A DNA stretch of 64,000 bases from Candidatus Poribacteria bacterium (lineage in GTDB: Bacteria; Poribacteria; WGA-4E; WGA-3G): positions 1 through 64,000 of the forward strand of contig VXMD01000049.1 of assembly GCA_009841255.1 (NCBI GenBank), in the 5' to 3' direction. Positions 17,878 to 27,389 of this stretch are shown one piece after another. Position 1 is the first letter of the stretch. The number at the start of each line of letters is the position of its first letter. The notes below the pieces were generated by a model. The model saw only the letters and a program-made list of their open reading frames with translations, was not told where the DNA came from and ran no database searches. The position numbers and the translations under genes are program-made.

Positions 17878-18882
17878 ATGAGACCCATACTAATTTATGC
17901 AGTGTTAGGAATGGTGTTGTTGCTCAGTAGTTTTCCGTTCGTCAGTAATGGATGGACGGTCGAAAGCGATGTCATCTCCTTCATTTTCAGAGACAATGGC
18001 AACTCTGACCTGTACCTCATGGATATTCGAGGGGAGGTGTTCCGCCATATCACATTCAGAACGGTAAATATATATGGCCATACTTGGTCGCCTGATGGTG
18101 GATCTTTTGCTTACGTATCCAGAAAGAACGGAGACCTTGAGATTTATGTAATGGACGTTAAAAGGAAAAAACACCGTCGATTGACACACCATTTTGGCAG
18201 AGATTCAGAGCCTGCTTGGTCTCCGAATGGCAAATGGATTACATTCATCTCGGATCGTGCTGGAGATACGGACATCTATAGAATGGACGCGAATGGAAAG
18301 AATGTGAAGAAACTGACGAACCAAGGGGAGTGCAACAAACCTACATGGTCCCCAGATAGTCAATCAATTGCCTTTACTTCGTCTTCGGAAGGGGAATACT
18401 TTATGTATGTGATGGGTGCCGATGGCAAAAGATTAAGACGACTGGTGGGGGGTATGTCTATCCCTGGATGCTCGTGGTCGCCGGACGGCAAACAAATTGC
18501 ATTTATCTCCCGTGGTGCTGAAAGGGGAATGGATATTTTCAGCATTGACATAGATGGGAAAAACTTGCGTCAACTCACCTGGTTGGACCAAGGCGCATTC
18601 ATTTTTAGGAGCCCTGCATGGTCGCCGAGTGGAAAATGGATCGCCTATGTTTTGTCGGAACTGATAGGCCCCTTAAAACCCGTTCTCCTTCCTGAAGATT
18701 TTGAGAAAGGTTTTGAGACTCCAGTCGTCTGCGTTGTAAATACAGTAGATGGTGGGGTTGGGAAACCGATTGAGGCGACGAGGGAATTAGGGGCTAGCGG
18801 GTCTATGAACTGGGTGCCGGAGGAGTTTTTTTTTTGTTTCTCCAAGTTCGGAGAAGCAGACAACACTCTGGGGGAGACTTAA
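17878..18882 (+). CDS. Secreted TolB-like beta-propeller, copy 1, C-terminus frameshifted
   Basis: A 334-residue exported protein: a hydrophobic signal segment at residues 5-24, then repeated PD40/WD40-like blades with the TolB signature (WSPDGG, WSPNGKWITFIS, WSPDSQSIAFTS, WSPDGKQIAFIS, WSPSGKWIAYV). It is the first of four tandem paralogues and has AGGAGG upstream. A run of ten T residues at about 18826-18835 shifts the frame relative to its paralogues. With nine T the protein would end in the shared VSPS...KQTTLWGRLKQM tail at 18907. Periplasmic or surface location and a ligand-binding scaffold role are inferred. Confidence 0.8.
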   Translation: MRPILIYAVLGMVLLLSSFPFVSNGWTVESDVISFIFRDNGNSDLYLMDIRGEVFRHITFRTVNIYGHTWSPDGGSFAYVSRKNGDLEIYVMDVKRKKHRRLTHHFGRDSEPAWSPNGKWITFISDRAGDTDIYRMDANGKNVKKLTNQGECNKPTWSPDSQSIAFTSSSEGEYFMYVMGADGKRLRRLVGGMSIPGCSWSPDGKQIAFISRGAERGMDIFSIDIDGKNLRQLTWLDQGAFIFRSPAWSPSGKWIAYVLSELIGPLKPVLLPEDFEKGFETPVVCVVNTVDGGVGKPIEATRELGASGSMNWVPEEFFFCFSKFGEADNTLGET

Positions 18883-18936
18883 GCAGATGGAAGATGCTCC
18901 TAAGTAGTTGTCAGATTACAAGAGGGAGGTGTTGGC

Positions 18937-20046
18937 ATGGAACGCACGCGAAGTTACGTAGTATTAAGGACGGTGCTGTTGCTAAGTGCATGTTTGCTGT
19001 TCATAGCTAGCTGGGCAGACGCTGCCAAAAGCGATTGGATCTCCTTCGCTTCCAATCGAACAGGAAACTTTGATATCTACGTCATGAATACCAATGGTGA
19101 GAATCTTCGTAACTTGACAAACCATCCGGCACGTGAATGGGAACCCGCGTGGTCGCCTGATGGACGTTTCTTGGCTTATGTCTCCAACCGAGATGGAGAT
19201 TTCAAGATCTATGTCATGGACACAAGGACAGGTGAACACCGGCGACTCACAGACCACCACGAGAGCGAATGGGCACCGGCTTGGTCGCCTAATGGAAAAT
19301 GGATCGCCTTTGTCTCCCGTAGCGATGAAATTATTCCGCCGGTCAAATTTAAAATAACGAGCCACATCTACAGAATAGATGCCAACGGTGCAAATCTGGT
19401 GCAGTTGACAGACCAAGGGAAAAACCTTCGACCAGCATGGTCTCCCGACAGTAAACAGATTGCGTTCGTGTCCTACCATCGGGGTAAAGAAAGGAAAGGA
19501 CTCTACATAATGAACGCCGATGGAAGACAGTTGAGACGCGTTAATGACCAACAGGTACAAGCACTTAATGGAATATTTCAAAGCGAGTGTGCTTGGTCCC
19601 CCGATGGTAAACAGATCGCTTTTAGTATTGTAGCTCCCAGAGATGATCGTATGCACCTGTGCGTGATTGACGCAGATGGCAAGAATTTTCGCCAACTCAC
19701 CCGAGGCGGTCCCATATTAAAACCAGCAGTCGGAAAACAATTAAAACCAGTAATAGCAGGAAAACAACCACCGACCTTCCCACTCCCCGAGATTGGTTCC
19801 CCGGCGTGGTCCCCCGACGGCAAGTGGATTGCCTTTACTTTTTCAGAGACAGTATTCTGGCAAACCGCTGACATCTATATTATAGACGCAGAAGGAAATA
19901 GACGCGGAACACCGCTTGTACAGGATGCCGGACGAAATCTATCCCCTGCGTGGGTACCGGAGGGGTTTCTCTCTGTATCACCGAGTGTGGAGAAGCAAAC
20001 AACGCTTTGGGGAAGACTCAAGCAAATGGACGATACTTCCAAGTAG
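18937..20046 (+). CDS. Secreted TolB-like beta-propeller, copy 2
   Basis: A 369-residue protein with signal peptide (LLLSACLLFIASWADA, cleavage probably after ADA near residue 29; LLSAC also resembles a lipobox). It has six or so TolB/PD40 blades, each ending with a motif like AWSPDGKWIAF or IYVMNTNGENLRNLT. It starts 30-55 nt after copy 1 and carries the conserved tail LSVSPSVEKQTTLWGRLKQM. It is most similar to copy 3. In TolB such propellers bind partner proteins; here the partner is unknown. Confidence 0.82.
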   Translation: MERTRSYVVLRTVLLLSACLLFIASWADAAKSDWISFASNRTGNFDIYVMNTNGENLRNLTNHPAREWEPAWSPDGRFLAYVSNRDGDFKIYVMDTRTGEHRRLTDHHESEWAPAWSPNGKWIAFVSRSDEIIPPVKFKITSHIYRIDANGANLVQLTDQGKNLRPAWSPDSKQIAFVSYHRGKERKGLYIMNADGRQLRRVNDQQVQALNGIFQSECAWSPDGKQIAFSIVAPRDDRMHLCVIDADGKNFRQLTRGGPILKPAVGKQLKPVIAGKQPPTFPLPEIGSPAWSPDGKWIAFTFSETVFWQTADIYIIDAEGNRRGTPLVQDAGRNLSPAWVPEGFLSVSPSVEKQTTLWGRLKQMDDTSK

Positions 20047-20075
20047 ATGCAGGATTATAAGAGGAACTTGTTAAC

Positions 20076-21170
20076 ATGAAACGCACATTAACTTATGTAG
20101 TATTAGGAACGGTATTGTTGCTTAGCGGATGTCTGCTGTTCATAGCTAACTGGGCAGACGCTGCGGGAAGTGATCGGATATCCTTTGCTTCCAATCGATC
20201 GGGGAACTTAGATATTTATATTATGAATAGCAATGGGGAGAGACTTCGCAGGCTCACAACGGACCTGATCCGCAAGAATAATAGTGGACCGCCATGGCCG
20301 CCGGATCTGACATGGTCCCCAGATGGGCATTTCTTGGCATATACCTCCAATAGAGATGGAAATCTCAAGACTTATATCATGGACACAAAGACCCGGGAAC
20401 ATCGGCGGCTCACAGACCATCACGAGGGAGAATTGTACCCGGCGTGGTCCCCGGATGGAAAGTGGATTGCCTATGTCGCTGGTGATGCTGGAAGGTCCCA
20501 CATCTACAAAACGGATGTCAATGGTGCACATCCAGTAGAGTTGACAGATCCTGGATACTACGGGCGACCTGCCTGGTCCCCGGATGGAAAACAGATCGCT
20601 TTTGTCTCTTTATCCCACGATAAAGTGGGTATGAGGAACGGTCTCTATGTAATGAATGCTAATGGGAAAAGGTTGCGGCGCGTTCCTGGTAGAAACAGAG
20701 GCAGACTTACAAGTAAATGTGCTTGGTCTCCTGATGGAAAACAGATCGCTTTTAGTATCTATATCCCTCAAACTGAGCGATATCACCTCTGCGTGATTGA
20801 CGTAGATGGAGAAAACTTCCGCCAACTTACACAAGGCGATCCCATAGTCAAACCACTGAAAGGAGAAAAACAGAAACCTGTGAACGTCCACCTGCCACGT
20901 CTTCCGCTCCCAGAGATTTATTCTCCCGCGTGGTCTCCTGACGGCAAACGGATTGCCTACGTTTATTCAGATACAATACTCCGGCAAACCGCTGACATCT
21001 ATATTATAGACGCGAAGGGTAACGAGCGTGGAACGCCGCTTGTAAAGGAACGGGGAATCGACGTCTCTCCTGCATGGGTGCCGGAGGGGTTTCTTTCTGT
21101 TTCACCAAGTGCAGAGAAGCAAACAACGCTTTGGGGAAGACTCAAGCAAATGGAAGGCACTTCTAAGTAG
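20076..21170 (+). CDS. Secreted TolB-like beta-propeller, copy 3
   Basis: A 364-residue close paralogue of copy 2, 29 nt downstream of it. The signal peptide contains LLLSGC, a good lipobox, but the following residues stay hydrophobic (LLFIANWADA), so signal peptidase I cleavage after ADA is an alternative. Blades show WSPDGHFLAYTS, WSPDGKWIAYVA, WSPDGKQIAFVS and related motifs; the tail LSVSPSAEKQTTLWGRLKQM is shared. Tandem duplication is evident from matching start context, tail and spacing. Confidence 0.82.
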   Translation: MKRTLTYVVLGTVLLLSGCLLFIANWADAAGSDRISFASNRSGNLDIYIMNSNGERLRRLTTDLIRKNNSGPPWPPDLTWSPDGHFLAYTSNRDGNLKTYIMDTKTREHRRLTDHHEGELYPAWSPDGKWIAYVAGDAGRSHIYKTDVNGAHPVELTDPGYYGRPAWSPDGKQIAFVSLSHDKVGMRNGLYVMNANGKRLRRVPGRNRGRLTSKCAWSPDGKQIAFSIYIPQTERYHLCVIDVDGENFRQLTQGDPIVKPLKGEKQKPVNVHLPRLPLPEIYSPAWSPDGKRIAYVYSDTILRQTADIYIIDAKGNERGTPLVKERGIDVSPAWVPEGFLSVSPSAEKQTTLWGRLKQMEGTSK

Positions 21171-21199
21171 ATACAACATTATAGGAGGGATATGTTGAT

Positions 21200-22210
21200 A
21201 TGAAACGCATACGAACTCACGCGGTATTATGGACGACGTTGTTGCTGTTTAGCACCAATGGATGGGCGGCTGAGACGGAGATCCTTTCTTTTCTCCCCAG
21301 AAAAGGCGAAGACCGTTCCATCTATCTCGTAAACACCCGCGGACAACTCCTTGAAACGCCACGACTAATAGTAGGGCCGGGACGTATAGGTACCTTCAGT
21401 TGGTCACCCGATGGTCGTTCAGTTACCTACGGCTCTAACCAAGACGGAGACCCTGATATTTATGTGACCGATGTAAGAAAAAAGACGGAGCGTCAGTTGA
21501 CTTTTGACGGTAACAGAGATATTTGGCCCGCCTGGTCCCCGAATCGGAAATGGATTGCGTTCATCTCGGATCGTGTCGGGGAGATGGCTATTTACAGAAT
21601 GGATGCCGATGGCGAAAATCTGATGCGACTGACGAATCAAGGGCACTGCAGCAGACCGGTTTGGTCGCCAGATAGCCAACGGATCGCTTTTACTTCAAAT
21701 AAAGTAGATAATAATTCCCTTTATGTGATGACCGCTGCGGGTAGAGGGGTAAGGCGCCTCGCGAAGGCATCTTCGGGTGGATGCACATGGTCACCTGACG
21801 GTAAAGAGATTGCTTTTATTGCTCCAGGAGATGTCCGTGGAAGTGTCGCGCTTTTCAGTATTAACATTGACAGAAAAAGACAGCGCCAACTGACCGAGTT
21901 GTATAAAGATTTCACACGTATCTCCCAACCTGCGTGGTCCCCGAGTGGGAAATGGATCGCCTATACTGTGACACAATTGCCGATAGATTTGCTCAGACAG
22001 GGTCCGGTGCCAGTGGATGTGGCTTTTGCGAAGTCGGTCATCCGTCTCGCAAATACAGCAAACAGTAGGGGCGGAAAATCCCTCGAAGAGACAAGGGGAT
22101 TGGTGAGCGCGGCTGCTCTTGAATGGGTGCCGGGGGGGTCTCTCTCTGTATCTCCAAGTGCGGAGAAACTGATGACGCTCTGGGGCGAACTCAAGCAGAC
22201 CGACAAGTAA
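21200..22210 (+). CDS. Secreted TolB-like beta-propeller, copy 4
   Basis: A 336-residue member of the array with a shorter signal peptide (residues 1-25, ending NGWAA). Blades include FSWSPDGRSVTYGS, WSPNRKWIAFIS, WSPDSQRIAFTS and WSPSGKWIAYT; its blade order is closest to copy 1, suggesting an A-B-B-A history of duplication. It ends with LSVSPSAEKLMTLWGELKQ. GGAGG precedes the ATG by about 9 nt. The next gene, a dioxygenase, follows after 18 nt and may belong to the same transcript. Confidence 0.82.
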   Translation: MKRIRTHAVLWTTLLLFSTNGWAAETEILSFLPRKGEDRSIYLVNTRGQLLETPRLIVGPGRIGTFSWSPDGRSVTYGSNQDGDPDIYVTDVRKKTERQLTFDGNRDIWPAWSPNRKWIAFISDRVGEMAIYRMDADGENLMRLTNQGHCSRPVWSPDSQRIAFTSNKVDNNSLYVMTAAGRGVRRLAKASSGGCTWSPDGKEIAFIAPGDVRGSVALFSINIDRKRQRQLTELYKDFTRISQPAWSPSGKWIAYTVTQLPIDLLRQGPVPVDVAFAKSVIRLANTANSRGGKSLEETRGLVSAAALEWVPGGSLSVSPSAEKLMTLWGELKQTDK

Positions 22211-23966: not shown

Positions 23967-24998
23967 TTAAAATCGGTAGATTGAGGTGTCGGGATAGTAG
24001 CGCGCCCATGCGAACCAATAGATATTAACAGCAGGCAGCCGTTCTAAACGTGTCCCTGTATCCTTACCCGAGGTCGCTTCACCTGTAACGAGGTTCCAAC
24101 GCGTCCCAGCGTTGTCCTCTACAAAGTATCTATCTTGGTGACTAAAGGTCCGCGCGTCCCCCGCCACACTCCGCTTGAAGACTGCCGTTGCGAAAGATTT
24201 TTTGTCGTGAAAGATGAGTAGGGGTACCCCGCCGAGTGTATCGTTGATAACGGCAGTTTTCGTAAAATGTGTCAACGGATACGCGCGAAATTGCGTGTTA
24301 CCCTCCTTTGTCTGTACCTGAACGCCGATGACGAGGGATTTATTGGGTAACCTCTCATCGGTGTATTCCATCCCGCTGACACCTGCGCGCTGGCTGGCGT
24401 GATAGTCTGCGTAGACATCTTGATTGCGATTCTCACGCATTCCATCTCTGGTAGGCACGGATAGTACGCGTGTTCTTGGATAGTTCTGTTGCCATGTTTT
24501 CCAGGCAATCTGCGGCATGGAAGCAAGCGATTTTAACCGCTTCCCTTTGAGTGGTCCCCGTATCGCTTCCCCGGTGATATGCGACCAGAGGGAGCGGGTC
24601 TGATGGTCATACATCAACAGTGCATCTCGCCACAATTTTCCACTCACACCAAACGTATAGGTCTTCTCGTTGAGCTCTCGGCTATACACGATAGCCGTTT
24701 TGCAGAGCGGTCACCACGTCGTGGCAATTTTCAGTCCGCCGACAACGTCGTTGACGATCTCGTGTCCGTTCAGCAGATAGAGTGAATAGGCTCGGCTTTC
24801 GTCATTGAAGGTTACACCAATGACAGGAGCATCAAGGTCCAATTTTGCTTCGCTGGCTGGCACGAACTGCGGATCGGTAATAGCGGGAATCGCATCGAAA
24901 GGTAGTAGTGTTCGGATTGCGTCGCCTGTATAATCTATAGCGGTTGCGCAGAGGGTGGTGAAGAGTAGTAGTGCGAGAGTCAGGATGTGGTTTTTCAC
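23967..24998 (-). CDS. DUF3179 protein with in-frame TGA at a CxxC cysteine: candidate selenoprotein
   Basis: Two abutting frames form one uninterrupted DUF3179 protein of 343 residues if the TGA at 24711-24713 is read through. The N-terminus is a signal peptide (GTG start, about 20 residues). The family motif normally read as T-W-C-P-L-C-x-T-A-I has TGA at the first Cys, giving UPLC. The sequence then continues in the same frame with family hallmarks (TFGVSGKLWRDALLMYDHQT, SLWSHITGEAI, NYPRTRVLS) to a normal end. A SECIS-like stem-loop follows the TGA. Sec insertion in a periplasmic redox-type CxxC motif is therefore plausible; the alternative is a recent nonsense mutation. DUF3179 function is not established. 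Confidence 0.7.
24674..24713 (-). promoter_or_regulatory. Candidate bacterial SECIS element after in-frame UGA
   Basis: On the minus strand, after TGA and CC, GCTCT pairs with a distal AGAGC, and an upper 6-bp perfect helix GGCTAT/ATAGCC encloses the loop CGTGT. The apical loop begins 20 nt after UGA and has G in its second position, matching the published bacterial SECIS model (UGA-to-loop distance 16-37 nt, G among the first two loop bases). Confidence 0.6.
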
Positions 24999-25006
24999 GA
25001 TTTTTC

Positions 25007-25231
25007 CTAGTTTTTCTCCATGAAGGGCAGCCTTCGGCGTAAAACTGGCTCAATACGGGGAACTAATAAAATGTACGCGGCACCTGACAGAAAAACTGTA
25101 ATGATTGTCGAAATTTGTTGCGATAAACCCAGATACAATAGTATTGGATAGCACACCATCAGAGGGATAGTAATTAATACTACTCCAATTAACCAAAGAG
25201 TTTTTTCTCTAATAACTTCTATCATGCTCAT
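25007..25231 (-). CDS. Small two-helix membrane protein, paralogue of 27009-27389
   Basis: A 74-residue protein with two predicted membrane helices (about residues 11-31 and 38-58) separated by a short turn. The first 60 residues are clearly paralogous to the product at 27009-27389 (shared IREKTLWLIG, CYPIL, YLGLS/FLGLS). The start could be either of two ATG codons (25231 or 25225). It overlaps a short upstream ORF in another frame, the same arrangement as at the paralogous locus. No function known. Confidence 0.55.
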   Translation of the reverse strand: MSMIEVIREKTLWLIGVVLITIPLMVCYPILLYLGLSQQISTIITVFLSGAAYILLVPRIEPVLRRRLPFMEKN

Positions 25232-27008: not shown

Positions 27009-27389
27009 TTACCAATGCGTCCAATCGCCTCTAAGATCTCTCGCAATATTGACATTTGAAAAGGTGACATCTAATTCGCTAGCCCTAAAGTATGAACTCG
27101 GATCCTTTATAATTTGGAGTCCTAAGCCACTCCTTTTGGATATAAGGGCTGAAGATTCATCTGTTGCTTTGGATCGAATGAGTGGTAGAATTTTGCGTAG
27201 AAATGGCTGAATATAAGTAACCAAAAAAATGTACGCAATACCTGATAGACAAGCCGTAGCGATTGTGGCGACTTTTGAGGACAAGCCAAGAAACTTTAGA
27301 ATCGGATAACACGCCAGCAGAGGGATGGTAATTGATACTGCCCCAATTAGCCAGAGAGTTTTTTCTCTAATAATTTCTATCATGTTCAT
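27009..27389 (-). CDS. Small membrane protein, paralogue of 25007-25231, with C-terminal extension
   Basis: A 126-residue protein. The first 65 residues match the 74-residue product at 25007-25231 and contain two membrane helices. The C-terminal 55 residues are soluble and absent from the other copy. It overlaps the upstream gene by 23 nt. Its stop codon lies in the Shine-Dalgarno of the metalloprotease-like gene that follows, implying a compact operon 27588-26064. Function unknown. Confidence 0.55.
   Translation of the reverse strand: MNMIEIIREKTLWLIGAVSITIPLLACYPILKFLGLSSKVATIATACLSGIAYIFLVTYIQPFLRKILPLIRSKATDESSALISKRSGLGLQIIKDPSSYFRASELDVTFSNVNIARDLRGDWTHW

Follow-up and report, generated by a model that had tools for sequence, protein, structure and literature searches.

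A predicted selenocysteine-containing DUF3179 protein with a conserved SECIS hairpin in Candidatus Poribacteria

A DUF3179 gene in a genome of Candidatus Poribacteria bacterium, of the sponge-symbiont type, carries a TGA codon inside its reading frame, which raises the question of whether this codon ends the protein or encodes selenocysteine (Sec). The gene lies in a stretch of 64,000 nucleotides (hereafter, the window) of an assembly of 5.73 Mb on 87 contigs, estimated to be 96% complete. From sequence comparison, we are highly confident that it is a genuine predicted selenocysteine-containing protein with a strongly supported SECIS hairpin, because the genome has the four Sec genes, Sec and Cys are exchanged at codon 96, and the hairpin both covaries and is constrained at synonymous positions. 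These results support the original prediction of a selenoprotein with a SECIS hairpin.

With the TGA counted as one residue, the gene is a single frame of 343 residues (Table 1). The TGA at codon 96, in the peptide context ...GGLKIATTW-U-PLCKTAIVY..., is its only internal stop, and the plus strand across the same positions is not open. When Cys was placed at codon 96, the protein matched the Pfam family DUF3179 (PF11376) over residues 35-338 with an E-value of 2.7e-79, and its score of 267 bits (gathering cut-off, 27) covered positions 2-292 of the 292 in the profile, placing it within the family. The GTG start is supported by an ATG at the equivalent position in relatives (MKNY...). The intact DUF3179 frame on both sides of the TGA, with no second disruption in 343 codons, had been proposed from the window alone and is borne out by the whole-length match; the positions given then were also correct, though the strand was not named.

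Table 1 Features of the DUF3179 locus, in coordinates of the window.
Feature	Position	Strand	Basis or detail
DUF3179 selenoprotein gene (predicted)	23967..24998	minus	343 codons, GTG start at 24998, TAA stop at 23967-23969
N-terminal hydrophobic segment, probable signal peptide, residues 1-20	24939..24998	minus	sequence
HEIVND motif, residues 79-84	24747..24764	minus	E80, N83 and D84 invariant, H79 at least 90% in alignment
In-frame TGA, predicted selenocysteine 96	24711..24713	minus	frame and homologue comparison
U-P-L-C redox motif, residues 96-99	24702..24713	minus	alignment; TGC/TGT at codon 96 of Cys paralogues
bSECIS apical hairpin CGGCTAT-CGTGT-ATAGCCG, 7-bp stem	24679..24697	minus	folding, covariation, synonymous constraint
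Apical loop CGTGT, G at position 2, begins 20 nt after UGA	24686..24690	minus	comparison of relatives' loops
Lower stem GCTCT (24704-24708) / AGAGC (24674-24678)	24674..24708	minus	folds in source genome only, not in relatives

The gene stands alone and is convergent with an SDR gene. No operon partner was found at the locus. The neighbors, PhyH and SDR, are oriented convergently, and synteny around the gene fades at the order level. A minus-strand ORF (25007-25231) ends 8 bases ahead of the DUF3179 start; this ORF and another on the same strand (27009-27389) encode two similar small membrane proteins (IREKTLWLIG...). On the plus strand, four tandem related genes at 17878-22210 were named TolB/WD40-like beta-propellers from a look at their sequences only, and they were not found at the equivalent place in the six relatives compared.

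To be read as Sec, the codon requires a dedicated machinery, and the original prediction had named the absence of selA, selB or selC as grounds against it. The source genome encodes selA (596 bits), selB (353 bits), selD (361 bits) and a tRNA-Sec (78 bits) with the anticodon TCA (UCA in RNA), the latter directly adjoining selB, so that all four Sec genes occur together in one genome. Rfam and tRNA scans of the 64-kb window gave no match. Across the phylum, tRNA-Sec was detected in 72 of 85 genomes. Of the 69 with a TGA-type DUF3179 gene, 65 have selB, and the other four are 73-83% complete. The selD gene of the source genome also contains a UGA, with the TGA in MAEEKIRLTATVKCAG-U-ASK (AGUASK); this gene lies outside the window (G000:C31:125360-126283, L106) and has a possible hairpin 3' of its UGA. 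A second, partial selB, likewise outside the window (G000:C50:157864-158679, L011), lies 4 kb from the full copy. It matches the full copy exactly over its first ~280 residues, as does the lepB upstream of it, after which the frame enters unrelated sequence; it was absent from every relative compared and is either a recent duplication or an assembly artefact.

DUF3179 was detected in 75 of the 85 genomes of the phylum. Codon 96 was TGA in 69 retrieved Poribacteria loci, one per genome, and TGC or TGT in 16 loci, all of them clear paralogues. The exchange of Sec and Cys thus falls exactly at codon 96, as anticipated when the TGA was assigned to the first Cys of a CPLC motif, and no same-species orthologue with TGC or TGT and without a conserved hairpin appeared among the retrieved loci. 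In three distant relatives in the phylum (L091, L092 and L093), the Sec protein is shorter and divergent, has UHLC instead of UPLC and forms a subfamily of its own.

Named bacterial and archaeal genomes were then scanned with a query derived from the Sec-type subfamily but consisting of the sequence 3' of the UGA only, and so neutral between Sec and Cys at codon 96. TGA occupied the codon-96 site in every one of the 80 loci retained except L176, which has Cys there. The close relatives were all Candidatus Poribacteria assemblies, and 22 further TGA loci came from Armatimonadota, Nitrospinota, Acidobacteriota, Planctomycetota, Actinomycetota, Chloroflexota, Thermodesulfobacteriota, Eiseniibacteriota, Tectimicrobiota and one further bacterium, mostly as metagenome assemblies, for which individual phylum assignments may be wrong. 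In a tree of 57 proteins, at least two changes between Sec and Cys were required: one Cys sequence, from Armatimonadota, clusters with proteins of the Sec clade, and one Sec sequence, from Desulfobacterales, with those of the Cys clade. These comparisons newly show that the Sec form is near-universal in Poribacteria and that the Sec clade spans at least nine other phyla. Three Sec-type proteins (L170, L175 and L179) lack the second Cys and have UPLA or UPLT.

As a 19-mer, the hairpin 3' of the UGA folds with -7.9 kcal/mol (z -3.6), and none of 200 shuffles was equally stable; the 42-nt stretch that contains it reaches -14.4 kcal/mol. When the peptide was recoded synonymously, only 1.2% of draws gave a stem of 6 bp or more in the same register. 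Among 43 distinct sequences, 93.4% of the hairpin cells were paired versus 78.0% in shuffles, and 44 cells carried double changes versus 13.4 ± 3.4, a number reached in 0 of 500 shuffles. As a control, the partner strand was slid by 1-3 columns; only 22-43% of cells then paired, and no more than 10 carried double changes. One compensatory example is GGCTAT/ATAGCC versus GGCGT/ACGCC in two relatives, with the CGTGT loop unchanged. Of 163 codons testable among the Poribacterial orthologues, those with the lowest relative codon entropy were exactly the hairpin codons 101-105, nearly fixed as ACG, GCT, ATC, GTG and TAT, whereas codons farther out on either side vary freely. One stem pair is broken in each of two loci (L064 and L031), and no such stem was seen in the Cys paralogues examined.

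The bSECIS model allows an apical loop of 3-9 nt, an upper stem of 4-16 bp, a G within the first two loop positions, 16-37 nt between the UGA and the apical loop, and a free energy of -7.5 kcal/mol or lower (PMC13188914). The hairpin described here lies within all of these limits, including that of energy when folded as the 19-mer, whereas only 45 of 71 distinct hairpins passed the energy limit when a fixed 29-nt stretch was tested. The spacing of 20 nt and the G at loop position 2 were predicted correctly, the G being present in 71 of 71 distinct sequences. The two-part stem-loop proposed at the outset holds in part: its apical hairpin is conserved and covarying, while its lower stem was not found in most relatives compared and is particular to the source genome. 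The compensatory changes and the low synonymous variability together strongly support a bSECIS in Poribacterial DUF3179 genes, which is new here.

Several other readings of the TGA were considered. The TGA could be a stop placed inside an ordinary Cys-type DUF3179 gene by pseudogene formation or by an error of sequencing or assembly, given that TGA is one base away from TGC and TGT; we reject this, with next to no probability left to it, since the same TGA recurs in 69 genomes of the phylum and in other phyla and the frame 3' of it is open and conserved. A genome-wide use of TGA as a sense codon, e.g., for Trp, would fit the read-through in both the DUF3179 gene and selD, and is the least credible of these readings. 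The genome has a real tRNA-Sec and selB, and both TGA genes found have the TGA at known Cys/Sec sites. Moreover, selA and selB have no internal stop, none occurs among the Rieske matches listed in 13 genomes, and one of the 12 window genes checked has TGA as its own stop; general reassignment was rejected on these grounds.

It is also conceivable that the UGA acts as a regulated stop, with a functional product of 95 residues and Sec read-through as a minor by-product. The upstream frame has its own probable signal peptide, and Sec insertion in bacteria is often inefficient. We regard this as very improbable, as conservation is equally strong in both halves of the protein, with W138, G143 and W301 among the conserved residues of the second, and termination at the UGA would cut the first structural repeat mid-way. 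Sec incorporation is the reading we retain: the hairpin immediately 3' of UGA-96 would direct SelB and the Sec-tRNA(UCA) to insert Sec rather than stop.

The predicted protein is probably exported or membrane-anchored. By simple pattern counts, a hydrophobic N-terminal run of at least 10 occurs in 87 of 93 Sec-type loci and a loose lipobox pattern in 12 of 93, and it is these hydrophobic N-termini in most relatives, with a lipobox in few, that suggest a location outside the cytoplasm. In a 36-sequence alignment, E80, N83, D84, Cys/Sec 96, C99, W138 and G143 were invariant and H79 nearly so; the HEIVND motif is likely part of the active site. Ala or Thr replaces the second Cys in three Sec forms, which argues that Sec is the primary residue. 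An AlphaFold2 model (pLDDT 90.7, pTM 0.88) has two similar tandem beta repeats, at ~58-183 and 222-334 (strand order judged by eye), with the UPLC site in repeat 1 and no counterpart in repeat 2. The reactive centre would therefore be confined to repeat 1, comprising Sec96-Pro-Leu-Cys99 and the HEIVND motif.

By motif and analogy, a redox enzyme is the most likely role, and we consider it probable that the protein is an extracytoplasmic thiol/selenol oxidoreductase or a reductase of peroxides or oxidised sulfur. Sec96 may attack the substrate, after which Cys99 would resolve the selenenylsulfide; in proteins with Ala or Thr at position 99, this step could fall to a thiol from outside. The UPLC site could instead bind a metal or cofactor without thiol redox catalysis, as H79, E80, D84, Sec96 and Cys99 could make up such a site and the fold resembles Rieske ferredoxins. 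This is unlikely in our view, given that the protein lacks the full Rieske ligand set and shows no sequence-profile similarity to Rieske proteins, and that some Sec forms do without Cys99.

The resemblance to Rieske proteins comes from Foldseek, in which the best solved matches to the model were Rieske folds (probability up to 1.00, TM to target 0.5-0.6, E 0.005-0.1); a sequence search for solved structures found no relative. It is repeat 1 that resembles Rieske ferredoxins and NirD, and His79 and Sec96 have the spacing of the Rieske-motif His and Cys. Unlike those proteins, DUF3179 has neither the first Cys nor the last His ligand (N77-G-H79...U96-P-L-C99 rather than C-x-H...C-x-x-H), and two attempts at comparing the Rieske and DUF3179 profiles gave no signal above the reversed control. 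Because of these E-values and profile results, the Rieske-like fold is tentative and serves as a lead only. We would consider it rather doubtful that DUF3179 is both a tandem Rieske-like fold whose cluster loop CPxH turned into the Sec redox centre UPLC and a main reason why Poribacteria, perhaps with other sponge symbionts, keep the Sec machinery. A further Foldseek match of the model is to a predicted protein (A0A1V0SD44) of Indivirus ILV1, a giant virus (E 6e-9, TM 0.48/0.67).

The suggestion that DUF3179 is new as a selenoprotein family does not stand. DUF3179 (pfam11376, UxxC/T) already appears in the tables of predicted selenoprotein families of two reviews (PMC9312934, 2022; PMC13188914, 2026), whose entries for it cite Zhang and Gladyshev 2007 on the Olavius algarvensis delta symbiont; the Poribacterial gene is a new member of this predicted family. 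No report joining Poribacteria with selenoproteins was found in the literature searched, and Candidatus Poribacteria now joins the phyla with strong evidence of Sec use. What was a one-line table entry becomes a family whose SECIS is supported, whose Sec clade covers about 10 phyla and whose history includes at least two changes between Sec and Cys. It also provides a concrete client for the enrichment of selA and selB in sponge-symbiont genomes, reported for several phyla (PMC5649159). NCBIfam has no model for a DUF3179 selenoprotein, so annotation pipelines probably mis-call the gene by splitting it into two truncated ones, which should be kept in mind when these genomes are annotated.

Compared with the bSECIS consensus (PMC13188914), the Poribacterial element shares the 5-nt loop, the 7-bp upper stem, the G within the first two loop positions with a U after it, and the 20-nt spacing, and differs in its loop being nearly fixed as CGTGT and in having no conserved lower stem. 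The Cys-type DUF3179 paralogues (CPLCGTGI.F.) are of the same fold family and have a CxxC site, and some genomes (G007, G008, G017, G020 and G021) contain both types. Unlike the Sec type, the paralogues have TGC or TGT at the site and no hairpin, and many have an insert ahead of the conserved SLW motif. The DUF3179 selenoproteins listed for the Olavius algarvensis delta symbiont, as those entries describe them, belong to the same family and have Sec at the same position of UxxC, and single-Sec variants without the second Cys (UPLA, UPLT) occur here as in the listed UxxC/T; in contrast to that case, the Sec form described here belongs to Candidatus Poribacteria, where it is nearly universal.
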